A stretch of DNA of 64,000 bases from Salinibacterium sp. NG253 (GTDB lineage Bacteria; Actinomycetota; Actinomycetes; Actinomycetales; Microbacteriaceae): positions 992,378-1,056,377 of the forward strand of contig NZ_JADYWF010000001.1 of assembly GCF_015864945.1 (NCBI RefSeq). The letters run 5' to 3'. A program made the translations under genes and the position numbers. This document shows positions 30,063 through 41,563 of this stretch, in pieces. Every line of letters begins with the position of its first letter. Position 1 is the first letter of the stretch. Below the pieces are notes generated by a model. That model was not told the DNA's origin, made no database searches, and was given only the letters and a program-made list of their open reading frames with translations.

Positions 30063-32720
30063 TCACAACCTCGAACGCCGCACCAGCGTTCGGCGCACAA
30101 GCTTTTCGACCTCGATGACAATCAGCACGGTCGACGCGGCGGCTGCGCACCCCAGCCATTCCCCGGGCGTGAGGGGAACGAGTTGCAACACACTGGCGCT
30201 GACCGGCCACGTCATCACAAGCCACTGCAACCCAAGCGAGCCGACGGCGGTCGCAACAAGGAACGGGTTGCTGAACGGACTAATGGTGAAGAGCGAACGT
30301 CGCTCGGTACGCGCACTACCTGCTTGGAAGAAGCTCATCAGCACAAAGACCGTCATCGTGATCGTGCGCACGCGATCCAGTTCATAGCCTGCGGCGAGCG
30401 CCAGTTGGAACGTGATGATCAGCACGGTCGCCATCCAGGTCGACGACATCACGGTGCGCATCCACAACTCACGCGACAGGATCCCCTCGCGCGCTGCCCG
30501 CGGCCTCCGCCGAAGCTCGTCCCCCTCGGCGGGTTCAAACGCGAGCGCAACATCTTGCAGACCGCTCGTGACAACGTTGATCCACAGCACCTGCACCGGG
30601 ATAAGCAGCAGTGGCTGATCGAAAAAGAAGCTGATAGCAACTGCCAGCATGATTCCGAAGCCAGTCGACAACAGAAAGAACGTTGATTTGCGGATGGCCG
30701 AGAACACGATGCGGCCCTGCCGAACCGCCTCGACAACGGTGGCAAAACGATCATCAGTGAGCACGACATCCGCAGCTTCTCGCGCAACGTCAGTGCCCGC
30801 CTTGCCCATCGCAACACCGATAGCGGCCGCTTTCAGCGCGGGGGCGTCGTTCACGCCGTCCCCCGTTACTGCAACCGTTTCCCCAATCGCTTGCAACGCC
30901 TGAACAACGCGAAGCTTGTCTGACGGTGAAACACGCGCGATAACGCCAGCGTGAGCCACCCGGTCAGCTAGCGCAGCATCATCTAAGTCGTCGAGTTGAG
31001 CCCCCGTGATTACATCGTCACAGTCGGCGATTCCGAGTCGTCGTGCGATCGTAGTAGCCGTCAACGGGTGGTCACCCGTCACCATGATGACTCGGATCCC
31101 CGCCCCGACACAGAGGGCTATCGACTCGAGGGCCTCCGCTCGCGGAGGGTCGGTGAGAGCAACAAGACCGAGCAGTTGCAGCTTGCTGGGGTGCGGAAGT
31201 TCCGGACCCGTGAGCTCGTTGTGCTCCACACTTCGACAGGCGATTGCCAACACGCGGTAACCATCGCTAGCCAGGTCAGCCTGGGCGTCGTACACCCGCT
31301 GGCGTGCGGTCGCATCGAGGGAGCCTCCCCCGGCCTCCTCGCTACACATCGAGAGCACGAGCTCTGGCGCGCCCTTGACGTAAAGCATGAGTGCCGCATC
31401 CGTCTCCCGCTGGTCGTGACGGCGCAGCGACTGTGAATAACGGTTCTGTGGTTCGTACGGCAGCCGTGCCACCTGATCGGGCTCGTCATCGTCACTCGTA
31501 ACGCCAAGCGAGCGAGCGAGCGCCGCAAGCGCAACATCGACGGCATCACCGATGAAACCGCCTTCGTCGTCATCGCGAGAGTGTGCCTCGTTCACGAGGG
31601 CACCCGCCATGATGAGGTCGTGCAGCACCCCACTCGGCTCGTAACGCATGCCCTCAACCTCAATGACGCCGCGGTCTGGCACCCACACCCGCTCGACGGC
31701 GAGGCGGTTTTGCGTGAGCGTGCCCGTCTTGTCACTCGCAATCACCGTCGTCGAGCCGAGTGTTTCGGCGGCCGGCAGCGTGCGCACGATCGCGCCCTGG
31801 GTTGCCATCCGGCGCACTCCGAGTGCCAGCGCGACCGTCATCACGACGGGCAAGGCTTCAGGGATGGTTGCTACCGCCATGGCGATCGCCGACAGCAAGA
31901 CTGATTCGAGTTCTTCGCCGAGCAGCAGACCAGTGGCGATCACCGCCACGGCAACAACTGCAACGAAAACTCCAATGCGGCGTTCGAGACTGTTGATGCT
32001 CCGCTGGAGTGGCGTCTTCTCCGGGCGAGTTTGGATCAGTTCGTTTATCCGCCCCAGCTCCGTGTCTCGTCCCGTCGCGACGACCACACCACGAGCACGG
32101 CCAGACGTGACGAACGTACCGCTGTAGAGCATCCCGCGGCGGTCAGCCGTCGCCGCATGCGCGGGAACCGCGTCAGGAGTTTTGTGAACCTGCTCCGACT
32201 CGCCCGTGAGCATCGATTCATCAACCTGAAGCGCGTGAGCATCAACAATTCTGACGTCGGCGGTTACCTGCTCACCGCTCTCCAGCGTGACAACATCACC
32301 CGGAACGAGCTCCACCGCTCGAAGACGGATGACGTGGCCGTCCCGCAGAGCGCGTGCCCGGGGAACAGCAAGCGAGGCGAGGGCTCGCATTTCTCGCTCG
32401 GCCCGGGTCTCTTCCCAGAAACCAATCGAGGCATTCAGCACGAGCACAATGAGAATGGCGGTCGAGTCGACCCAATCTTGCTGCAGCAGCGTAATCGTCG
32501 CGGCCACCAACAGGATCGCGATCAGCGGCGAACGAAACTGTCGCAATGCCACCACTATGGCGGGCGTTGGCTTGCGCACTTCCAACCGATTCGGCCCATA
32601 CTCGGCTTGCCGTTCGGTGGCCTCGGCGGCGCTCAGTCCCTGCGCGCTCGTCTTCAGACGAACAAACGCCTCAGCAGAATCGAGCGCGTGCCACGGTTCC
32701 TCCGACACGCCTGTTGTCAT
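30063..32720 (-). CDS. P-type cation-translocating ATPase (P2-type, calcium-like)
   Basis: 885 residues. It contains the N-terminal cation ATPase domain, the actuator TGES loop (SMLTGESEQV), the phosphorylation site DKTGTLT, the nucleotide-binding domain with the KGAPE motif, the hinge TGDGVNDAPALK and six C-terminal membrane segments. The PEALPVVMTVALALGVRRMA segment in TM4 matches P2-type pumps for Ca2+ or related cations. No heavy-metal-binding CxxC domain is present, which argues against a copper or zinc pump. The gene stands alone. The exact ion cannot be fixed from sequence. Confidence 0.92.
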   Translation of the reverse strand: MTTGVSEEPWHALDSAEAFVRLKTSAQGLSAAEATERQAEYGPNRLEVRKPTPAIVVALRQFRSPLIAILLVAATITLLQQDWVDSTAILIVLVLNASIGFWEETRAEREMRALASLAVPRARALRDGHVIRLRAVELVPGDVVTLESGEQVTADVRIVDAHALQVDESMLTGESEQVHKTPDAVPAHAATADRRGMLYSGTFVTSGRARGVVVATGRDTELGRINELIQTRPEKTPLQRSINSLERRIGVFVAVVAVAVIATGLLLGEELESVLLSAIAMAVATIPEALPVVMTVALALGVRRMATQGAIVRTLPAAETLGSTTVIASDKTGTLTQNRLAVERVWVPDRGVIEVEGMRYEPSGVLHDLIMAGALVNEAHSRDDDEGGFIGDAVDVALAALARSLGVTSDDDEPDQVARLPYEPQNRYSQSLRRHDQRETDAALMLYVKGAPELVLSMCSEEAGGGSLDATARQRVYDAQADLASDGYRVLAIACRSVEHNELTGPELPHPSKLQLLGLVALTDPPRAEALESIALCVGAGIRVIMVTGDHPLTATTIARRLGIADCDDVITGAQLDDLDDAALADRVAHAGVIARVSPSDKLRVVQALQAIGETVAVTGDGVNDAPALKAAAIGVAMGKAGTDVAREAADVVLTDDRFATVVEAVRQGRIVFSAIRKSTFFLLSTGFGIMLAVAISFFFDQPLLLIPVQVLWINVVTSGLQDVALAFEPAEGDELRRRPRAAREGILSRELWMRTVMSSTWMATVLIITFQLALAAGYELDRVRTITMTVFVLMSFFQAGSARTERRSLFTISPFSNPFLVATAVGSLGLQWLVMTWPVSASVLQLVPLTPGEWLGCAAAASTVLIVIEVEKLVRRTLVRRSRL

Positions 32721-32849
32721 AGCCCCACGCTACAACGGTGGCGTTGGTACGACTAGAGGTGTGCGTGCGAACGTGACACTGCGCTGATGGGCACCGCCCC
32801 AAAGACCCTTCCATCCGCGACGTGCTGTTCGCGTGTGCTCCTCACGGCA

Positions 32850-32887
32850 CAACGGCCGCGAGCGGGTTTCCCCGTTCACGGCCGTTG
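32850..32887. terminator. hairpin at the end of the ugp operon
   Basis: Arms 32850-32858 and 32879-32887 pair over 9 bp, and inner arms add more GC pairs. It lies just past the ugpB stop. No T-run follows on the minus strand. Confidence 0.65.
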
Positions 32888-32908
32888 CTGTCGTGCGTGT
32901 AGAGAACG

Positions 32909-34234
32909 CTAGCGGTTCAGCACTTCGTTGACTTCTTCAGCGAGCGCCGGCATCGCTTCTGACGCGTCGAGGTCGTCGAAGTAGATGGCGTGGATGCGCT
33001 CGGTCATGAGGTCTTCGAGTTCGCTGTAGGCCTTTGTGGCCGGACGAGGCTTGCCGTAGGTGATCTGCTCAGCAGCAACGGCGTAGCCCGGAGTGGTTTC
33101 CATAAGGTCTTGGATCACGTCGGTCTCAAGCGCGGAGAGACGAACCGGAAGGTAACCGGTGCGCGACGAGGAGTAGGCAGCCCGCTCGGTGTCGCTCGTC
33201 CACTTCATGAACTCGAATGCTGCGGCCTTCTCTTGGTCCGTACCGGTGTTGGCGAGGTAGATGTTCGATCCACCGACCGAAACACCACGCTGACCGTTCT
33301 CGCCGGCGGGAATCAGCGAGACACCAACATCCACTCCGTTGCCAGCAGCGAGGCCGAGGATCGACTGGATGCCGCCCGAGCTCAAAAACGTGAAGGCAGT
33401 GTCGGCACTGCCGGCCGCAGCGAAGAATGCACTCACGTCTGCAGCTCCGGTGACCTTGATGAGGTCGCGGTCTTCGAGGTCGGCGATCCACTCGATCGTC
33501 TTGATAGCACCCTCGGTGTCATACATCGACGCGGTCTCGTCATCGTTGAGCACAGCGGTTCCGCCGTACGAGTAGAAGAGTGCTTCCATAACCCAGAAGT
33601 CGTAGTCGCAGAAGATCATCGCGGGGCCGCCGACGTAGTCGTGAGCAGCCTCGAGGTACTCCTCGAACTCGTCGAAGGTCTCGGGGCCGGTCTCTTTGAG
33701 GCCGAGTTCACGCATCATGTCTTGGTTCACGTACATGACAGGAACACTGCGCATGTGCGGGAAGGCATACATGTCGCCGTCAACGTAGAGGTTGTCGGTT
33801 TCGCCCATCTGGAAGTCCGCGTCGTCCATTTCGACAGCAGCCATGTACGGCTCGAGGTTGAGCGTGGTGGTGGCGCGAGCGAAACGGTCAGTCATGCCGA
33901 CCTCATCCACAAACATGTTGGGAAGAGTGTCAGCGAGCGCTGCGGCGTTGACCTTCTGCTCGGTCTCAACGTAGTCGCCCTGGTAGTTGGCGGTGACGTG
34001 GATGTTGAGTTCTTCACCGCGGGTCTCGTTGAACATGTCAACGAGTTCCTGGTTCACATCTTCAACAGCGGCGGTCCAGAACTCAAGCTCGACGGTCTCC
34101 TCACCGGGCTCGTAGGTGTAGCTAGCGGCATCCGCATTGGCTGCGGTGCAGCCAGAGAGCAGAACCGAGCCGAGAGCAATCGAAGCGAGCACGCCGGCGC
34201 GTGCCCGACCTCGCGAAGAACGGGTGGAGGACAT
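32909..34234 (-). CDS. ugpB: extracellular solute-binding lipoprotein, UgpB-like
   Basis: 441 residues. The start at 34234 follows AAAGAAAGG and gives a proper lipoprotein signal: basic N-terminus, hydrophobic core, and lipobox LSGC with Cys29. The mature part is a family 1 solute-binding protein (VELEFWTAAVEDVNQELVDMF at the start). Its place at the end of an operon with GDPD genes and UgpA/E/C-like subunits makes glycerophosphodiesters or sn-glycerol-3-phosphate the likely ligands. The binding protein alone would not distinguish these from other polyols or sugars. Confidence 0.85.
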   Translation of the reverse strand: MSSTRSSRGRARAGVLASIALGSVLLSGCTAANADAASYTYEPGEETVELEFWTAAVEDVNQELVDMFNETRGEELNIHVTANYQGDYVETEQKVNAAALADTLPNMFVDEVGMTDRFARATTTLNLEPYMAAVEMDDADFQMGETDNLYVDGDMYAFPHMRSVPVMYVNQDMMRELGLKETGPETFDEFEEYLEAAHDYVGGPAMIFCDYDFWVMEALFYSYGGTAVLNDDETASMYDTEGAIKTIEWIADLEDRDLIKVTGAADVSAFFAAAGSADTAFTFLSSGGIQSILGLAAGNGVDVGVSLIPAGENGQRGVSVGGSNIYLANTGTDQEKAAAFEFMKWTSDTERAAYSSSRTGYLPVRLSALETDVIQDLMETTPGYAVAAEQITYGKPRPATKAYSELEDLMTERIHAIYFDDLDASEAMPALAEEVNEVLNR

Positions 34235-34320
34235 GGTGGTGCCTTTCTTTGATGTGGTTGAGATGGTGCGTGTTGAGGTGGTGCGTTGTGAGTTAGTGCG
34301 GACAGGGAAACTGAGGGGCA

Positions 34321-35265
34321 TCACTTGACGCCGGTATAGGTGAACGCCGAGATGATGTGGCGGCGCGCAAGGAGGAAGACGATAAGGATCGGCACGACGA
34401 GGAGCATGTTTCCCGCCATCACGATGGTCGGTGCGATCTCATCGAGGGCTTCGAGTCGCGGTATGGCCACGGGAAGCGTGCGAACGGCATCCGTTGTGGT
34501 CCATACCAGCGGGAAGAAGTAGTTATTCCAGGTGCCAATGAACGTGATCAGCCCGATGGTCACGATCGTCGGTTTGGCCAGCGGCAGCATGATGCGACGG
34601 ATGATCGTGAACTCACTCGCATGATCGAGTCGCGCCGCTTCGATCAAGCTGTCGGGCACTCGCATGAAAGTTTGGCGCAACAAGAAGATGCCAAACCCGC
34701 TCGCGATGAACGGCAAGATGAGCGAGAGGTGCGTATTGAGCAGCCCCATCTTGGCGTACATCGCAAACACCGGGAGAAAGATGAGCTGCCCGGGAATCAT
34801 CATGGTGGCCAGCACCACGCCGAAGAGAACGTCGCGACCCTTGAACTGGAAACGCGCGAACGCATAGGCGGCGGGCACGATGATCAGGAACTGCCCGAGC
34901 AGGGTCCCACCCGTCACGATCGCCGAGTTCAGTGCAAAGTGGCCGAAGTTCACCCGGTCGAAGGCGGCGACGAAGTTGTCCCAGCGGAGGGAATCGACCC
35001 AGAACTGAGGGGGGATCGACAGCGCTTCGGATGCCGTCTGAAAGGCGGTGAGCACCATCCAGTAAAACGGCCCGGCGAACACCAGCACGAGGGCTAGCGA
35101 GATCACGATACGGGCGATGACCCGCACGACCTTCCAGAGGGTAGCGCCTACGCGCGGCGTGACCCCGCGCAGTGTCGGCGGCGATGGCGGCGAGTTTCCG
35201 TCACCGCTCTGACGAGAGTTCTTTGCGGATGCGGGCGGCGCGGGAGGCGCGATTGTGGTTGTCAT
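34321..35265 (-). CDS. ugpE: ABC permease, UgpE-like
   Basis: 314 residues. A Pro/Ser-rich N-terminus (about 45 residues) precedes six membrane segments of the carbohydrate-type MalG/UgpE permease class. The EAA loop (EAARLDHASEFTIIRRIMLPLAKP) contacts the ATPase. It overlaps the upstream permease gene by 4 nt. With UgpA it forms the membrane channel of the importer. Confidence 0.9.
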   Translation of the reverse strand: MTTTIAPPAPPASAKNSRQSGDGNSPPSPPTLRGVTPRVGATLWKVVRVIARIVISLALVLVFAGPFYWMVLTAFQTASEALSIPPQFWVDSLRWDNFVAAFDRVNFGHFALNSAIVTGGTLLGQFLIIVPAAYAFARFQFKGRDVLFGVVLATMMIPGQLIFLPVFAMYAKMGLLNTHLSLILPFIASGFGIFLLRQTFMRVPDSLIEAARLDHASEFTIIRRIMLPLAKPTIVTIGLITFIGTWNNYFFPLVWTTTDAVRTLPVAIPRLEALDEIAPTIVMAGNMLLVVPILIVFLLARRHIISAFTYTGVK

Positions 35266-36143
35266 CGGTAGTGCACTCTTTTCTGGAACGCGCGGAAGTA
35301 GAGAACGGTGATGAGCCCCACGAGCACCATCAGCACCACGGCAATAGCGGCGGCATAACCGACGCGGTAGTACTCGAAGCCTTCGCGGTACACACTGAAG
35401 ATGAGCGTGTTAGTTGAGCTCTGCGGCCCGCCCTGCGTCATCACGTTGATCGTGTCGAAGGCCTGAAACGACCCAATGACATTCACCAGCACAAGGAAGA
35501 ACAGCGTCGGCGAGATCATCGGAATCGTAATCTTGCGAAAGCGCGTCCACGCCGAAGCGTTGTCGAGGTCAGCAGCCTCGAACAAATAGCCAGGGATGGA
35601 CTGCAGCGCCGAAAGAATGATGAGCGCGTTCAGCCCCACCGACTTCCACACCGACACGAGAACGAGCGAGAAGAGGGCGACGTCGGTATCGGAAAGCCAG
35701 CCAACAGGCTCGACGCCGATTGCGCCGAGCATCTGATTGAACAGCCCGATGTCGTCATCCATCAACCACACAAAGATGAGCGAGACGGAGACGAGCGCGA
35801 TCACGTTGGGCGCAAAACTCACCCCTTGCAAGAACTCGCTGAGCCACCCTTGGCGATTCAAGAACAGCGCCAAGATCAGCCCGAAGATCATCACGAGCGA
35901 GACTTCCATGCCCATGTAGACGAGCGTGTTCTGAACGACCTTGCCAAAGTCGGGGTCGGTGAAGAGCTCGGCGAAGTTTCCGAATCCGACAAACGTCATC
36001 GGGCCGCGGAGATCCCACGAGAACACGCTGAGCACCGCGTTGTAGCCGATCGGATACAGGTAGAAGACCGCGAGAATGACGAGCGCCGGCGCGATCAGGA
36101 CATACGGCAGCAGGCGGCGATCCCTCAGTAGCGAGGTTTTCAT
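35262..36143 (-). CDS. ugpA: ABC permease, UgpA-like
   Basis: 293 residues with six membrane segments (first: YVLIAPALVILAVFYLYPIGYNAVL) and the EAA motif EAADLDNASAWTRFRKITIPMISP. It belongs to the MalF/UgpA class of carbohydrate-type importers. It overlaps both the ATPase gene upstream and ugpE downstream by 4 nt, so the subunits are made in a fixed ratio. Confidence 0.9.
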   Translation of the reverse strand: MKTSLLRDRRLLPYVLIAPALVILAVFYLYPIGYNAVLSVFSWDLRGPMTFVGFGNFAELFTDPDFGKVVQNTLVYMGMEVSLVMIFGLILALFLNRQGWLSEFLQGVSFAPNVIALVSVSLIFVWLMDDDIGLFNQMLGAIGVEPVGWLSDTDVALFSLVLVSVWKSVGLNALIILSALQSIPGYLFEAADLDNASAWTRFRKITIPMISPTLFFLVLVNVIGSFQAFDTINVMTQGGPQSSTNTLIFSVYREGFEYYRVGYAAAIAVVLMVLVGLITVLYFRAFQKRVHYR

Positions 36144-37222
36144 GCGGTGACAACCTCGCGAACCTGACCGGAGATAGCGGGTTCGGCGATGCGCTCTTCG
36201 TTGGCATCAAACCAGTGGATGTCGTTAGTCTCGACCCGCACGAGAGTGTCGCCGAGGGGGCGCGCAATTTCGTCGAAGCGTTTGATCGCAATTCGGGAGC
36301 CGTCGGGCATCGCGGCGCGGTACACGAGTTCCGCTCCGAGGTTTTCAAGGGCGATGATGGTGACCGTGAGCTCGGTTTCGCCGGGCACCGCGGGGCGGCT
36401 GGCGTCGGCAAAAGTGAGTCGCTCAGGGCGCACCCCGAGCCACTCAGCGCCGGCGGGGGCATCGGCCGCGACATCCGCCCCGAATGCATCGATGGGCACA
36501 ACGTTCATGGGCGGTGTTCCGATGAAGCGACTGGTGAAGACGTTCTGCGGTTTCGCGTACAGCTCGGTCGGTGCCGATTGCTGTTGAATGCGGCCCGAGT
36601 CCATGAGCACGATCGAGGTGCCCATGCTCATCGCTTCGACCTGGTCGTGAGTGACGTAAACGAAGGTTGCTCCTAGGCGTTCGTGGAGCTCGATGAGTTC
36701 GATGCGCATGTGCTGGCGCAGCTTCGCATCGAGGTTCGAGAGCGGTTCATCCATGAGAAAGACGGCAGGCTTTTTGACCATGGCGCGCGCCAACGCAACC
36801 CGCTGGCGTTCACCGCCCGAGAGCGCGTCCGGATTCTTGCGCAAGTGCGGGGTGAGGCCAACGGTCTCCGCAATCTCGTGCACGAGTTCGCGGCGCTCCA
36901 GTTTAGGAACCTTGTTGTTGCGCAGCCCGAATTCGATGTTCTCTTCCACCGTCATCGTCGGGTAGATCGCGTAGTTCTGAAAAACCATCGCGACGCCACG
37001 ACGGCCCGGCGCGACGTCATCCACTGTCTGACCGCCAATGGAGATCGTGCCCGTAGTTGGCTTCTCGAGACCGGCGATCATGCGCAGCGTTGTTGACTTG
37101 CCGCAGCCAGACGGCCCGACCAGCACTGAGAAGCTGCCCGCCTCAATAGTGAGGTCGAGACTCGGGATGATTTCTTTATCGCCGTAGGACTTACCGACGT
37201 TACGAAGTTCGATCTGGCTCAT
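36140..37222 (-). CDS. ugpC: ABC importer ATPase, UgpC/MalK-like
   Basis: 360 residues, the MalK-type length. Walker A GPSGCGKST, Q-loop VFQNYAIYP, signature LSGGERQR, Walker B VFLMDEPLSNLD, and the switch His in YVTHDQVEA are all present. The C-terminal third (from about 235) is the regulatory TOBE domain. It powers the UgpA/E channel. It is the first transporter gene after the three GDPD genes and overlaps the third by 4 nt. Confidence 0.93.
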   Translation of the reverse strand: MSQIELRNVGKSYGDKEIIPSLDLTIEAGSFSVLVGPSGCGKSTTLRMIAGLEKPTTGTISIGGQTVDDVAPGRRGVAMVFQNYAIYPTMTVEENIEFGLRNNKVPKLERRELVHEIAETVGLTPHLRKNPDALSGGERQRVALARAMVKKPAVFLMDEPLSNLDAKLRQHMRIELIELHERLGATFVYVTHDQVEAMSMGTSIVLMDSGRIQQQSAPTELYAKPQNVFTSRFIGTPPMNVVPIDAFGADVAADAPAGAEWLGVRPERLTFADASRPAVPGETELTVTIIALENLGAELVYRAAMPDGSRIAIKRFDEIARPLGDTLVRVETNDIHWFDANEERIAEPAISGQVREVVTA

Positions 37223-37998
37223 GCGTGTGCCTCCGTGGCGTGGACTGCGAGATGGTTGCGTGCACCGACATCGGGTCGGTTGGTCATGATGGCGTCGACA
37301 TCAAACTCGAGAATGCGATCAGCGGTGGCGTCATCATCGACGGTCCAGGCGTTGATACCGAGACCGTGCTCGCGCGCTTCCGCCACAAATCGCTCGTTGA
37401 TGAGCGAGAAATGTGGATGCAGCACGCTCGCGCCACAGCGTCGGGCGTAGCCGGGCAGGTCGGCGAAGGTTTCGACGAACGCGATCGCCGTCGTGAACTC
37501 TGGGTAGGAGCGAGCGAAACCAGCGATAGCGCGATGGTTGATCGACGAGATCAGGGTCGAGTCAACCCCATCATGCGCGCGAACTTCCGCGGCAACGAGA
37601 TCGTTGACAGCACCCCACGAGTTGGTGAAATCTTTCGTCTCGATGTTGACCCAAATGCCTCGCTCGGCCGCGAACGACAACACTTCGCTGAGCGTCGGGA
37701 TGCGAGTAACCGCGCGAGCGAACTGGCCCTCAAAGCCGCGATCGAAGTTGAGCACGCGCAACTCGGCGAGAGTGAAATCCCGCGCCCAGCCCATGCCGTC
37801 TGACGTGCGATCGACACGGGGGTCGTGCAAGACGACCAGGTGTCCGTCGCTTGTAACGTCAACATCCAATTCGATCTTGGTCGCTCCCATTTCGGCGGCA
37901 AGCTCGAACGCCGCAAGTGTGTTCTCGGGCGCGTAGCTGCTGGCTCCGCGGTGGGCGATGATGCGGCTGTCCCAAACGGGCGGACGTGCGGGGCTCAT
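37219..37998 (-). CDS. glycerophosphodiester phosphodiesterase (third in array)
   Basis: 259 residues, cytoplasmic (no signal peptide). The catalytic signature is intact: AHRGASSYAPENTLAAFE near the N-terminus, KIELDVDVTSDGHLVVLHDPRVDRT with the metal ligands and second His. Such enzymes cut glycerophosphodiesters (for example glycerophosphocholine) into sn-glycerol-3-phosphate and an alcohol. It overlaps the upstream GDPD-like gene and the downstream ugpC by 4 nt each, so hydrolysis and import are translated together. Confidence 0.92.
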   Translation of the reverse strand: MSPARPPVWDSRIIAHRGASSYAPENTLAAFELAAEMGATKIELDVDVTSDGHLVVLHDPRVDRTSDGMGWARDFTLAELRVLNFDRGFEGQFARAVTRIPTLSEVLSFAAERGIWVNIETKDFTNSWGAVNDLVAAEVRAHDGVDSTLISSINHRAIAGFARSYPEFTTAIAFVETFADLPGYARRCGASVLHPHFSLINERFVAEAREHGLGINAWTVDDDATADRILEFDVDAIMTNRPDVGARNHLAVHATEAHA

Positions 37999-38750
37999 GC
38001 GGATTCTCCTCGACGGTTGAGAGCAGATTGGTACGAATCGGTGACCACAGCGTCAACCCCGAGAGCAAAGAGTTGATCGAGCTGCTCTTCTTCGGTGACG
38101 GGCCAGAACTCGGCAACCAGGGTGGAGGCGCACACCATCACGCCAAGAGCTCGCGCACCATGCACGTCGCCCGTGGCGGCGCCGACAGCGATCGGGTGAA
38201 GGGCGATCGCGCCGATCGCAGCGGCATACGATGCGGCCTCTTCCATCACGACAAGGTGGCGAAGTCCAATCTTGAGAGACGGATGCGCGACAGCAAGCGC
38301 CGCCATCGACACATGATTAGTGGAGGTGATTGTCACGCGCTCGTGCATACGACGCTTGTGTACGAGCTCTGCGACCGCAACAGCGGCGGGGCTGGCTCCC
38401 TCGCTGTGCTGCGGGTCTTCCTTCACATCAAGGATGAGATGGGCATCGGAACCGGCCAGCAACTCGACCACTTCAGCAACCGTCGGAATTCGGGTGCCAG
38501 CGAATCCCTCGCGCCCAACGCCAATGTCGACCGTCTTCAGCTCAGCCAAGGTGAGCTCTTCGACAAGCGCGTTTGGCTGACCATCGTAGAGAACGCTTGC
38601 GCCGCGAAGCGCGACAAGTTCAGCATCCCGCGAGAGTCGAACGTCGATTTCGACCCCGTCAGCCCCACGGCGAAGCGACTGCTCAATCGCGGCGAGAGAA
38701 TTCTCCGGTGCGACGTCGGCGGCACCTCGACGCGCAAAAACGAGAGTCAT
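37995..38750 (-). CDS. GDPD-fold protein lacking catalytic histidines (middle of array)
   Basis: 251 residues with the GDPD fold: FARRGAADVAPENSLAAIE at the start, GVEIDVRLSRDAELVAL next. In active enzymes the first motif is HRG and the second includes HD; here they read RRG and LRGASVLYD, so both catalytic histidines are gone. The metal-binding E-x-D is kept. The protein is full length and its frame is intact with 4-nt overlaps on both sides, so it is not a decaying pseudogene. I infer a non-catalytic role, such as sensing or forming a complex with its active neighbours. Confidence 0.85.
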   Translation of the reverse strand: MTLVFARRGAADVAPENSLAAIEQSLRRGADGVEIDVRLSRDAELVALRGASVLYDGQPNALVEELTLAELKTVDIGVGREGFAGTRIPTVAEVVELLAGSDAHLILDVKEDPQHSEGASPAAVAVAELVHKRRMHERVTITSTNHVSMAALAVAHPSLKIGLRHLVVMEEAASYAAAIGAIALHPIAVGAATGDVHGARALGVMVCASTLVAEFWPVTEEEQLDQLFALGVDAVVTDSYQSALNRRGESA

Positions 38751-39532
38751 ACGAGCGCCTCTGCTTTCACGAGCGCTGCTCGCCGCGCGACAGCGATATC
38801 CGGGGTATTCGTGATGATCGAATCAACACCGGCGGCGATGAGGTCGTCGATCTGTTCCGCCTCACTCCGGCTGGAGAATGGCGCTGGGAGAGTCCAAGCA
38901 TTCACGGCAAGGTTCGCCGCGCGCGCCTGCCGCATGGTCTCGGGCGTGACGGCCAGATGAGCGGGATGGATGGCATCCGCTCCGGTCGTGGCAGCGTAGT
39001 TGCCGATCTCGTGCAGCGACATCATGTGAAGCAGCCCGGTGCGCACCTCAGGGTGGCTGTTTTTGAGGTCGGCCATTGAGGTGTGGTTGAACGAAGAGAA
39101 GAACACGTGGTCGACGAGGCTGCGGCGCAGAACTTCGTCGGCGGCACGTCGGGCTAATTCGCCATAGGAGTCATCGTGACGGTAGATGTCTTTGACTTCG
39201 ATGTTGAGCACGAGGTCGCGGCGCTCAACAAGGTCGAAGATCTCATCCAAGCTCGGGATGCGCGCCCCAGCGAAGTCTCCCGGCAGTCCCGTGCCGAAGT
39301 CGAGTCGGCGCAGCTCATCGAACAGGTGCTCCGACACACGGCCTGTGCCGTTGGAGGTGCGATCGATAGTGTCGTCGTGGATGGCCACGATCATGCCGTC
39401 GCGGGTGGCGTGAATGTCGATCTCCATGCCGTCGGCTCCCTGATCAGCACCGAGTTCATAGGCTTCGAGCGTGTTTTCGGGGGCGTAGGCCATGGCACCT
39501 CGGTGGCCGAGGATGAGTGGTGTGGCGGTCAT
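38747..39532 (-). CDS. glycerophosphodiester phosphodiesterase (first in array)
   Basis: 261 residues from the ATG at 39532, preceded by GAAAGAAG; an ATG 24 nt upstream abuts the terminator T-run and lacks a ribosome site. The signature is intact: LGHRGAMAYAPENTLEAYE, then GMEIDIHATRDGMIVAIHDDTIDRT. No signal peptide is seen, so it acts in the cytoplasm on imported substrates. It is the first gene behind the leader terminator at 39562-39640 and so the first to feel GlpP control if antitermination occurs. Confidence 0.93.
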   Translation of the reverse strand: MTATPLILGHRGAMAYAPENTLEAYELGADQGADGMEIDIHATRDGMIVAIHDDTIDRTSNGTGRVSEHLFDELRRLDFGTGLPGDFAGARIPSLDEIFDLVERRDLVLNIEVKDIYRHDDSYGELARRAADEVLRRSLVDHVFFSSFNHTSMADLKNSHPEVRTGLLHMMSLHEIGNYAATTGADAIHPAHLAVTPETMRQARAANLAVNAWTLPAPFSSRSEAEQIDDLIAAGVDSIITNTPDIAVARRAALVKAEALV

Positions 39533-39561
39533 GTGTGCTTCTTTCGATGAGTTCATGGCAT

Positions 39562-39640
39562 AAAAAAACCCGGGGAGTCAGCACGCTCAACGCTCGACAC
39601 CGCTGTTGCGGTGCGCGCTAAACGTGCTGACCCTCCGGGT
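39562..39640 (-). promoter_or_regulatory. leader terminator between glpP and the GDPD-ugp genes (candidate GlpP target)
   Basis: On the minus strand arms 39623-39640 and 39568-39585 pair at 17 of 18 positions, with a smaller hairpin (39598-39613) inside the loop, and the stem runs straight into seven T residues. This is a textbook intrinsic terminator placed about 30 nt before the first GDPD start. Directly upstream lies a GlpP-family gene; in Bacillus subtilis GlpP with glycerol-3-phosphate prevents termination in the glpD leader. I infer the same type of control here. Confidence 0.75.
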
Positions 39641-39702
39641 GCTCTCTAGTGACTCTGCCCTGGGGTTGTTATTCGATTGTGGGTGCTGCTGGTTGTTCTC
39701 GT

Positions 39703-39720
39703 GAGGCGGTTACCCGTCTC
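39703..39720 (-). promoter_or_regulatory. small hairpin in the GDPD leader
   Basis: GAGACGG-GTAA-CCGCCTC forms a 7-position stem with one mismatch, just after the glpP stop and 60 nt before the terminator. It may be a GlpP-binding element or simply the end of the glpP message. Confidence 0.35.
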
Positions 39721-39734
39721 GGCACGCATCGGGT

Positions 39735-40337
39735 TTAGGCGACGCGGGTGTGAATTCTTGACCGTCGACGCCGCCACAGTGCGGGGTTTCCGGTGGAAAC
39801 ATAGTCGGCGCCGCATTCGAGAACGGCGTCAATTTCTTCAGGATGACGGATGAGCCCGCCCACGATGAGGGGCTGCTGGATGCTGGCACGCAGATCGCGA
39901 ATGATTCGTGGCATGAGCCCTGGCATCACTTCCACCTCGGTGGGCCGGCTGGCATGCACTTGGCGCATGGCGTTCTCGACGGCGTGAGTATCGACAGCAA
40001 AAAATCGTTGTACCGATGCGATGCCGAGTTTTCGGGCGGCGGCGACAGCAGCGCTCTTGGTGGTGATAATTCCGTCGACGCCCACGTGTTCGACAAGGAA
40101 CTGCACCGCAGCACCGTCGCGGCTGATTCCGCCCACAAGTTCGAGATGAACATGTGCGGTTTTTCCGGCGTCATGGATGCGTGAAACCATGCCCGCGAGA
40201 CAGTTGATGTCTCCCACCAACAGGTTTATCCGCGCCACATCGCTCTCAAGTGCGTCGTCGAGCATGCCGTGTTCTTGCACCGAAGCGATGAGAGGGAACT
40301 CCCCCGCCGCTGTGCCACGCCATCTCAACTCGCTCAT
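39735..40337 (-). CDS. glpP: glycerol-3-phosphate-responsive antiterminator, GlpP family
   Basis: About 200 residues, normal GlpP length. It has the TIM-barrel-like pattern of the family: FPLIASVQ at the start, INLLVGDINCLAGMV, GKTAHVHLELVGGISRDG, DGIITTKSAAVAAARKLG, VEVMPGLMPRII and PLIVGGLIRHPEEI. In Bacillus GlpP binds G3P and an mRNA leader to stop premature termination. Here the gene is followed by a strong terminator and then GDPD and ugp genes, not glpD or glpF. An in-frame GTG 21 nt upstream (40358) is an alternative start. G3P made by the GDPDs would be its ligand. Confidence 0.88.
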   Translation of the reverse strand: MSELRWRGTAAGEFPLIASVQEHGMLDDALESDVARINLLVGDINCLAGMVSRIHDAGKTAHVHLELVGGISRDGAAVQFLVEHVGVDGIITTKSAAVAAARKLGIASVQRFFAVDTHAVENAMRQVHASRPTEVEVMPGLMPRIIRDLRASIQQPLIVGGLIRHPEEIDAVLECGADYVSTGNPALWRRRRSRIHTRVA

Positions 40338-40410
40338 GTTGGTGCCCACGCTAAACACCGCGGTTAGCCCAGCGGTAACGCTCAGGTGAACGGCAAACGC
40401 TGAGTCCTGG

Positions 40411-40917
40411 TCACAGTTCTACGTCGGCGAGCGCGGAACCGTCGCCATACTTATCGACAGAGATCACGCTGAGCTTTCCATTGGTCTCGAGAACTACGCA
40501 TTTGGTATCCGAGACTCCCCCCGACCCGCTCCCACGAATTGCCTGACGCACCTCAGACTCAGTAAGACGGCTGCGTTTCAGGGCATCGTGCCGCATCTCA
40601 CCGTCGCTCAGGAGCAGGATTGGACTGGAAGTTACTACCTTTCGAGCGGCCGGCCAACGAGCCGTTACCGCCGCGACAACAAATTGCAGCGCCGCGATGA
40701 CGGCGAACGCTGCAAGCCCCTCGGACCACGAAACATCGGTGTTGAGCAAAAGAGTCGCGAAGATCGAACCGAGCGCAACGGTCACGACGAAGTCAAAGAC
40801 ATTCAATTGCGACAGCGTGCGCTTGCCAGAGATTCGCAACACGATTAGGAGCGTTGCGTAACCGGCTGTGCCGACCACAGCAATGCGGACCAGGTCAGGC
40901 CACGAATCGAACCACAT
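40411..40917 (-). CDS. DUF421/YetF-family membrane protein
   Basis: 168 residues. Three N-terminal membrane segments (about residues 8-85) precede a small cytoplasmic domain with SGKRTLSQLNVFDFVVTVALGS and the SRLTESEVRQAIRGSG segment typical of YetF/DUF421 proteins. The function of the family is not settled. It is transcribed toward glpP but separated by about 75 bp, so co-transcription is possible but not shown. Confidence 0.88.
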   Translation of the reverse strand: MWFDSWPDLVRIAVVGTAGYATLLIVLRISGKRTLSQLNVFDFVVTVALGSIFATLLLNTDVSWSEGLAAFAVIAALQFVVAAVTARWPAARKVVTSSPILLLSDGEMRHDALKRSRLTESEVRQAIRGSGSGGVSDTKCVVLETNGKLSVISVDKYGDGSALADVEL

Positions 40918-41035
40918 ATAACTCGCCCTCTCTATCTAAGAACGGCGAAACGCTGCACTACGTATCACCAGAGTCTTCCATGGTGATGGTCGTTCGTGAG
41001 CATGACCTGAACGCGAAGGAACGCAACGGTAAGTG

Positions 41036-41107
41036 TGCCCCTGGAGGGATTCGAACCCCCAACCTGCTCCTTAGGACGGAGTTGCTCTTCCGTTGAGCTA
41101 CAGAGGC
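41036..41107 (-). tRNA. tRNA-Arg (anticodon CCT)
   Basis: Cloverleaf with acceptor stem GCCTCTG/CAGGGGC (one G-T pair), D arm GCTC/GAGC, anticodon loop GTCCTAA giving CCT (reads AGG) and T arm GGGGG-TTCGAAT-CCCTC. The base of the anticodon stem has one A-C mismatch. CCA is not encoded. AGG is rare in this window, as expected for a minor isoacceptor. Confidence 0.93.
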
Positions 41108-41164
41108 TGGCGTTTCGAGTGTAGCGGAGAGCAGCACGAAGAGCCCTCAGCCAGAGGGCCAGCG

Positions 41165-41563
41165 TTACCAGGTCGGCGCTGCCGCACCATCGATCGCGGC
41201 GGGCAGCGGATACTGCAGCGGCTGCAGGTCTGGCTCTAACCACTGCGTGCGACCCTCGGTGATGCGCTCGGGAGAGTAGAAGCGTTTGATGATGGACTTG
41301 TCGAGCAAATCTGGTGCGTCATCCACGTCATCTACCAGCGCAATGAGGTCGAACCAGGCGCGAGTGAGCGTGACATGAAAAGCATCCGGCTTGCCCGCCC
41401 GCCCGGCCATGCTCGTGATGCCGACCACGAGACGTTCGAAGCCGTCGACAGCGCCATACGTACGCGCCAGCAACCACGCCACGCGAACGTGACGTTCGTG
41501 CGAAAACGCAGCAGGCGCGATCGTGTTGTTTTCGAACGTTGTCATGAGTTCGTCGTCAGTCAT
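41165..41563 (-). CDS. conserved hypothetical protein
   Basis: 132 residues, soluble. The N-terminal pattern (DELMTTFENNTIAPAAFSHERHVRVAWLLAR) and a central FHVTLTRAWFDLIA segment resemble a widespread uncharacterised bacterial family. His and Arg residues in SHERHVRVAW could be functional, but no enzyme class is recognisable. The ATG follows GGAG at 9 nt. Confidence 0.75.
   Translation of the reverse strand: MTDDELMTTFENNTIAPAAFSHERHVRVAWLLARTYGAVDGFERLVVGITSMAGRAGKPDAFHVTLTRAWFDLIALVDDVDDAPDLLDKSIIKRFYSPERITEGRTQWLEPDLQPLQYPLPAAIDGAAAPTW

Follow-up and report, generated by a model that had tools for sequence, protein, structure and literature searches.

Known antitermination systems and the Salinibacterium locus

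In the parts of PMC9604022 available to us, GlpP of Bacillus subtilis is described to act by antitermination on glpD, glpFK and glpT/glpQ, and glpQ is counted among the GlpP-activated genes. The available text of PMC7430163, which also covers the LicT antiterminator, states that GlpP bound to glycerol-3-phosphate (G3P) binds the antiterminator and that GlpP with G3P also stabilises the glpD mRNA. Here we analyzed a stretch of 64,000 nucleotides (nt) of Salinibacterium sp. NG253 (contig NZ_JADYWF010000001.1, positions 992,378 to 1,056,377), referred to as the window. On its minus strand a glpP gene is followed by a leader with an intrinsic terminator and by an operon of three GDPD genes and four ugp-like transporter genes. 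As judged from the sequence, these very probably form a circuit in which GlpP controls the use of glycerophosphodiesters by antitermination.

The locus resembles the GlpP system of B. subtilis, as presented in the available parts of PMC9604022, in combining a GlpP-family protein, an intrinsic terminator in a leader and genes of G3P metabolism. Additionally, the GAGA element at the base of the terminator is found in leaders of Bacilli as well. It differs in its target, a GDPD-ugp ABC operon that immediately follows glpP, and no such leader was seen at the organism's own glpD genes. Antiterminators of the BglG/LicT type act through ribonucleic antiterminator (RAT) hairpins under control of phosphorylation by the phosphotransferase system (PTS). 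There, as proposed here, a hairpin held by the protein overlaps and excludes the terminator. However, the protein is unrelated, the RNA motif is another one, and control would be by a metabolite instead of PTS phosphorylation.

The initial annotation had proposed such a circuit and considered the link of GlpP to glycerophosphodiester import and hydrolysis in an actinobacterium to be undescribed. The first part was supported by comparison as regards the leader: the predicted GlpP-type leader in front of the GDPD-ugp operon shows a conserved motif with pairing flanks, recurs beside other glpP genes and leaves no room for a normal promoter behind its terminator. The second part was not supported in so far as a link of GlpP to GDPD is not new. 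GlpQ is a GDPD; since GlpP antitermination and the glpQ link are known, calling a GDPD link undescribed is wrong for Bacillus, and seven of 40 hand-chosen Bacilli loci carry glpP with ugpCAEB. In a literature search joining GlpP with ugp, ugpC or Actinobacteria, neither a GlpP-ugp switch nor an actinobacterial GlpP circuit appeared in titles or the beginnings of abstracts, and the available part of a Streptomyces paper names GlpP for B. subtilis only. A GlpP circuit in an actinobacterium that apparently serves one operon is new. Older papers on GlpP and the glpD leader, which lie outside this search, may already contain the loop motif or the hairpin.

The leader and its terminator

The terminator (39562..39640, minus strand) consists of a 32-pair hairpin interrupted by a 3-nt bulge and a single mismatch (39640-39568, -58.6 kcal/mol) and a run of seven T (39568-39562). 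The fold of the 178-nt leader had a z-score of -6.56, and none of 200 shuffled sequences was equally stable. A simple consensus scan did not list the terminator at 39640-39562, presumably owing to the length of its stem and the interruptions in it. From the T-run to the start codon of GDPD1 there are 29 nt (39533..39561), including the Shine-Dalgarno-like sequence GAAAGAAG. Since this gap has no room for a conventional promoter, we infer that the GDPD-ugp promoter lies upstream of the terminator. Transcription into the operon should thus have to traverse it.

The same hairpin could be a mere end-of-gene terminator of glpP, with the GDPD-ugp operon carrying a GlpP-independent promoter of its own. 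It lies about 95 nt past the glpP stop, and such terminators are common. This explanation is nevertheless highly unlikely, given the mere 29 nt in front of the start codon and a 42-nt element 5' of the hairpin that is invariant and common to other GlpP leaders.

The conservation of this element was seen in comparison with S. amurskyense. Identity amounted to 46/69 in the upstream part of the leader, 42/42 from 39665 to 39624 and 27/40 in the upper hairpin, followed by 27/27 in the terminator 3' arm with the T-run and 17/24 beyond it. Regarding the 32 terminator pairs, 26 were the same, three showed one-sided and two showed two-sided changes, and one was broken. The motif GAGU-N5-GAGA is located at the 5' base of the terminator within the fully conserved block. 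The leader of Salinibacterium sp. SWN248 is almost identical to that of the window and adds little information on conservation.

The GAGA motif at other GlpP-linked terminators

GlpP scored over the cut-off in 13 of 299 Microbacteriaceae genomes and in 140 of 200 Bacilli genomes. In seven of the Microbacteriaceae glpP loci (L025-L031), AGAGAACAG was found at the 5' base of a terminator; they represent a second predicted GlpP circuit, which is apparently undescribed. Each of them contained a FAD-oxidase-like gene together with an SDR-like one, and a match resembling an FGGY kinase was present in four (names from sequence reading). In Bacilli, terminators preceding glpF-, glpD- and glpT-like genes, so named from reading and gene order without a Pfam scan, often have GGAGA-N3-GGAGA at the 5' base.

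Within a set of 149 terminators, GAGA was present at the base of 29 of the 30 GlpP-linked ones, which come from Microbacteriaceae and Bacilli, and of 8 of the 119 others, where GlpP linkage was assigned by hand with the sequences already seen and three overlapping duplicates were excluded. The double motif was found in 24/30 and 0/119, respectively. The single GlpP-linked terminator without GAGA (L094) has a transposase-like gene downstream and is probably not a leader.

A conditional terminator might also be run by another factor, be it a protein, a small molecule or translation, with the neighboring glpP being coincidental. GlpP binding is a prediction, and the leader adjoins glpP rather than lying within it. 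However, the same motif occurs at glpP-adjacent terminators with different downstream genes, and 3 of the 27 genomes in the genus contain glpP together with the operon. Control by such a factor is therefore very improbable, and GlpP remains the favored regulator. At GlpP loci elsewhere the element likewise precedes operons which adjoin glpP.

For 27 Coriobacteriia GlpP loci, mostly with 1.5 kb flanks, three matches at two places were obtained, one of them plausible. This one (L046:1410, minus strand) is a possible GlpP-type element with a strong hairpin (-37 kcal/mol) adjoining a GlpP gene of an actinobacterium outside the Microbacteriaceae. A simpler AGAGA scan of the Coriobacteriia loci together with L068 and L069 returned nothing convincing.

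Pairing of the antiterminator flanks

The flanks of the motif are predicted to form an antiterminator hairpin (39630..39666, minus strand; arms 39666-39658 and 39639-39630) with GAGT (39655-39652) and GAGA (39646-39643) in its loop. With the terminator 3' arm left out, the predicted fold of the window leader is ACCCCAGGG...CCCGGAGGGU (-10.7 kcal/mol), and the CCCC opening this fold is the start of the block conserved between the species. The 3' arm of the antiterminator lies within the terminator 5' arm, hence the two hairpins are mutually exclusive.

Among related leaders the flanks pair while their letters vary, e.g. GUCGCU/AGCGAC, CCACU/AGUGG, CAGGC/GCCUG, UGGGU/ACCCA and GGUC/GACC. For every 5' flank we compared, independent of register, the energy of the duplex formed with its own 3' flank to that of duplexes with permuted ones. 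From 182 places with GAGA plus a hairpin, 77 passed the motif filter, 68 were distinct and 66 remained after removal of two spurious rows. The mean was -5.29 for own and -3.35 (standard deviation 0.21) for permuted partners, and none of 20,000 permutations was as good. When 24 elements were selected by hand, one for each locus, z was -6.5 (0/20,000). Shifting the 5' flank by 11 or 22 nt led to z +0.8 and -1.6, and shifting the 3' flank by 11 nt to z +0.4 (5,000 permutations each); a control with the loop halves yielded unusable energies. For the window 5' flank, its own 3' partner ranked best of 68 (-8.8 kcal/mol). In a fixed register on MAFFT alignment A3, which comprises 53 of the 66 elements, the share of paired cells was 58.4% compared to 50.6% after shuffling, and one of 500 shuffles was as high. 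The initial annotation had suggested comparing related leaders for conserved RNA elements, and the shared GAGA motif with pairing flanks beside other glpP genes is what this comparison brought up.

GlpP could mainly stabilise the mRNA at the long hairpin rather than antiterminate. The stabilisation of glpD mRNA by GlpP with G3P, given in the available part of PMC7430163, would fit this, and 32 pairs are unusually many. The T-run and a conserved pairing element overlapping the terminator 5' arm fit antitermination instead, and we consider a mainly stabilising role very unlikely.

Genes of the operon

The order on the minus strand is a YetF-like gene (40411-40917), glpP (39735..40337), the leader, GDPD1, GDPD2, GDPD3, ugpC, ugpA, ugpE and ugpB, which ends at 32909. 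The initial annotation had listed a GlpP-family gene, a terminator with 17 of 18 pairs and seven T, and three GDPD genes joined to ugpCAEB by 4-nt overlaps, and each of these was confirmed. The glpP product, belonging to the G3P responsive antiterminator family, matched PF04309 with 183 bits (cut-off 27). The lowest 18 positions per arm of the hairpin contain 17 pairs. All three GDPD genes matched PF03009 above its cut-off of 23.6 bits, and the ends of the open reading frames (ORFs) show six successive 4-nt overlaps among the last seven genes.

PF00977 also matched the glpP product weakly, and its relatives with solved structure were 3kts (E 8e-24) and 1vkf (E 1.5e-18). The domain scan found no match to the BglG/LicT-type domains CAT and PRD. 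Compared to the window, GlpP was 99.5% identical in Salinibacterium sp. SWN248 (200 amino acids; 100% in a match listing) and 95% identical in S. amurskyense.

GDPDs have a catalytic histidine-pair motif. It is present in GDPD1 (38747..39532, 147 bits), for which no signal peptide was seen by eye, and according to the alignment in GDPD3 (37219..37998, 167 bits). The start of GDPD1 was set to the ATG at 39532 behind the Shine-Dalgarno-like sequence; the start of the longest ORF, the ATG at 39556, has no counterpart in S. amurskyense. In GDPD2 (37995..38750, 84 bits), the alignment of three Salinibacterium genomes showed RRG instead of HRG and RG or RD instead of HD. As both catalytic histidines are lost in three species, GDPD2 is probably a non-catalytic member retained in the operon.

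For the transporter genes the Ugp models of NCBIfam ranked best but each scored under the curated cut-off: ugpC-like ABC ATPase (36140..37222, 374 bits, cut-off 432), ugpA-like permease (35262..36143, 171 bits, cut-off 335), ugpE-like permease (34321..35265, 107 bits, cut-off 297) and ugpB-like solute-binding lipoprotein (32909..34324, 63 bits, cut-off 411). UgpB was the sole NCBIfam match of the latter, which also matched PF13416 and has a lipobox by eye. Because of these scores, the genes are here called ugp-like.

Related cassettes and origin

The three genomes of the genus with glpP were the same as those with an orthologue of ugpB at 95% identity or more. In the seven Bacilli loci mentioned above (L170, L171, L174, L175, L182, L183 and L186), ugpC-A-E-B-like genes lie downstream of glpP, and six of these stretches also include a GDPD gene; in L185 the ugp-like genes are present in a different order. 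These cassettes thus contain the same genes, and five of the seven (L170, L171, L174, L175 and L186), as well as L068, have the element with a terminator upstream of glpP. Where the window protein was the best query, identity was 51-63% for UgpC, 47-49% for UgpA and 51-53% for UgpE. Unlike in Salinibacterium, where it follows glpP, the terminator precedes glpP in these cassettes, so that glpP would sit inside the switched operon. Furthermore, Salinibacterium has three GDPD genes ahead of ugp. In L076 (the L069 locus), the element and a terminator are located upstream of a GDPD gene heading its cluster.

In a GlpP tree of 70 rows, the two Salinibacterium rows grouped with an Alicyclobacillaceae GlpP encoded beside ugp-like genes and with six Bacilli rows (support 85/78, not starred, on a long branch), apart from seven other Microbacteriaceae rows (L002-L008). 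The glpP-ugp-GDPD cassette was likely transferred from Bacillota. One genome (G145), which lacks the cassette and has orthologues of the Ca-ATPase and YetF at a distance of about 1.8 kb, was considered as an empty insertion site; its gene order differs, and therefore it provides no clean insertion site.

Weight of the evidence and target range

Several observations speak against the proposed circuit. A promoter scan from 32000 to 41500 gave a single promoter-like site on the opposite strand, compared to 1.7 expected by chance. With -10.7 versus -58.6 kcal/mol the antiterminator is far weaker than the terminator, so help by the protein must be large or kinetic. In alignment A3, a control slid by +3 outscored the true register in covariation (0.273 versus 0.230). 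We attribute this to leaders out of register; as the fixed-register covariation is equivocal, the register-free permutation test carries the pairing argument. No element was found in the Bacilli ugp loci L182, L183 and L185 or in four Microbacteriaceae GlpP loci (L033-L036), whose GlpPs may function differently. Two RNA models, R1 (nine genomes) and R2 (three genomes), missed the element of the window itself and are therefore too weak for genome scans. In addition, both the circuit and the RNA family proposed below are to be read with GlpP-linked labels and Bacilli loci chosen by hand. The loci L033-L036 form a second Microbacteriaceae GlpP group on a long tree branch, beside a different FAD-oxidase-like gene.

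Model R2 listed 36 places, of which 30 were examined as loci; one (L192) was near a hairpin with a T-run (-14.6 kcal/mol) and was taken as a chance match. The 18-nt core pattern GAGTCACTAGAGAGCACC, searched with up to three mismatches in three Salinibacterium genomes, was found at nine places. Three were exact, one per genome and each after glpP, and six had three mismatches; the reversed pattern gave four places, about as many as these six. By eye, the double motif was not seen in the leader of either of the two GlpD-type genes of the own genome. Its glpD-glpK-like genes (L147:1216-5756) are divergent to a gene which by eye resembles a helix-turn-helix regulator, therefore glycerol use seems to be controlled separately from the GlpP circuit. 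Since both RNA models are too weak, there may be further, more divergent GlpP targets.

For the RNA target or the window, eight sequences were scanned with Rfam 15. At gathering threshold the window matched three tRNAs only, and there was no match at six other loci that contain GlpP or lie near it.

Proposed circuit and its meaning

Genes, terminator, the conserved and pairing RNA element and its co-occurrence with glpP were computed; G3P binding, GlpP-RNA contact, read-through and substrate are what we infer for the following circuit. Transcripts would start upstream of the leader, perhaps at the glpP promoter, and normally end at the terminator. Proteins of the GlpP family bind G3P. GlpP with G3P would hold the purine loop GAGU-N5-GAGA so that the two arms pair. 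This would take up the terminator 5' arm, block the terminator and allow read-through into GDPD1-2-3-ugpCAEB. GDPD1 and GDPD3 would cleave imported glycerophosphodiesters in the cytoplasm, and this would release G3P that sustains read-through. A feedback loop through G3P is plausible.

On balance we lean slightly towards a wider proposal. The GlpP antiterminators of Bacilli and Actinobacteria would share one RNA family absent from Rfam, a hairpin with the double purine motif GAG(A/U)...GAGA in its loop, a freely covarying stem and a 3' arm that at the same time is the terminator 5' arm. The GlpP-ugp-GDPD cassette would have moved into Salinibacterium together with its switch and have become a private sensor there, which reports the supply of glycerophosphodiesters to one operon. 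A shared antiterminator RNA without a match in Rfam 15 is new, and it would be worthwhile to define the element as a family.

Although GlpP has long been known as an antiterminator, no Rfam 15 match to its RNA target was obtained in the scanned sequences. The comparison across phyla leads to a concrete target, a loop motif with a covarying stem, by which GlpP regulons can be recognised in sequence data. Cassettes for glycerophosphodiester scavenging are headed by GlpP both in Bacilli and in an actinobacterium, and this would broaden the role of GlpP from glycerol use to the recycling of phospholipid headgroups.

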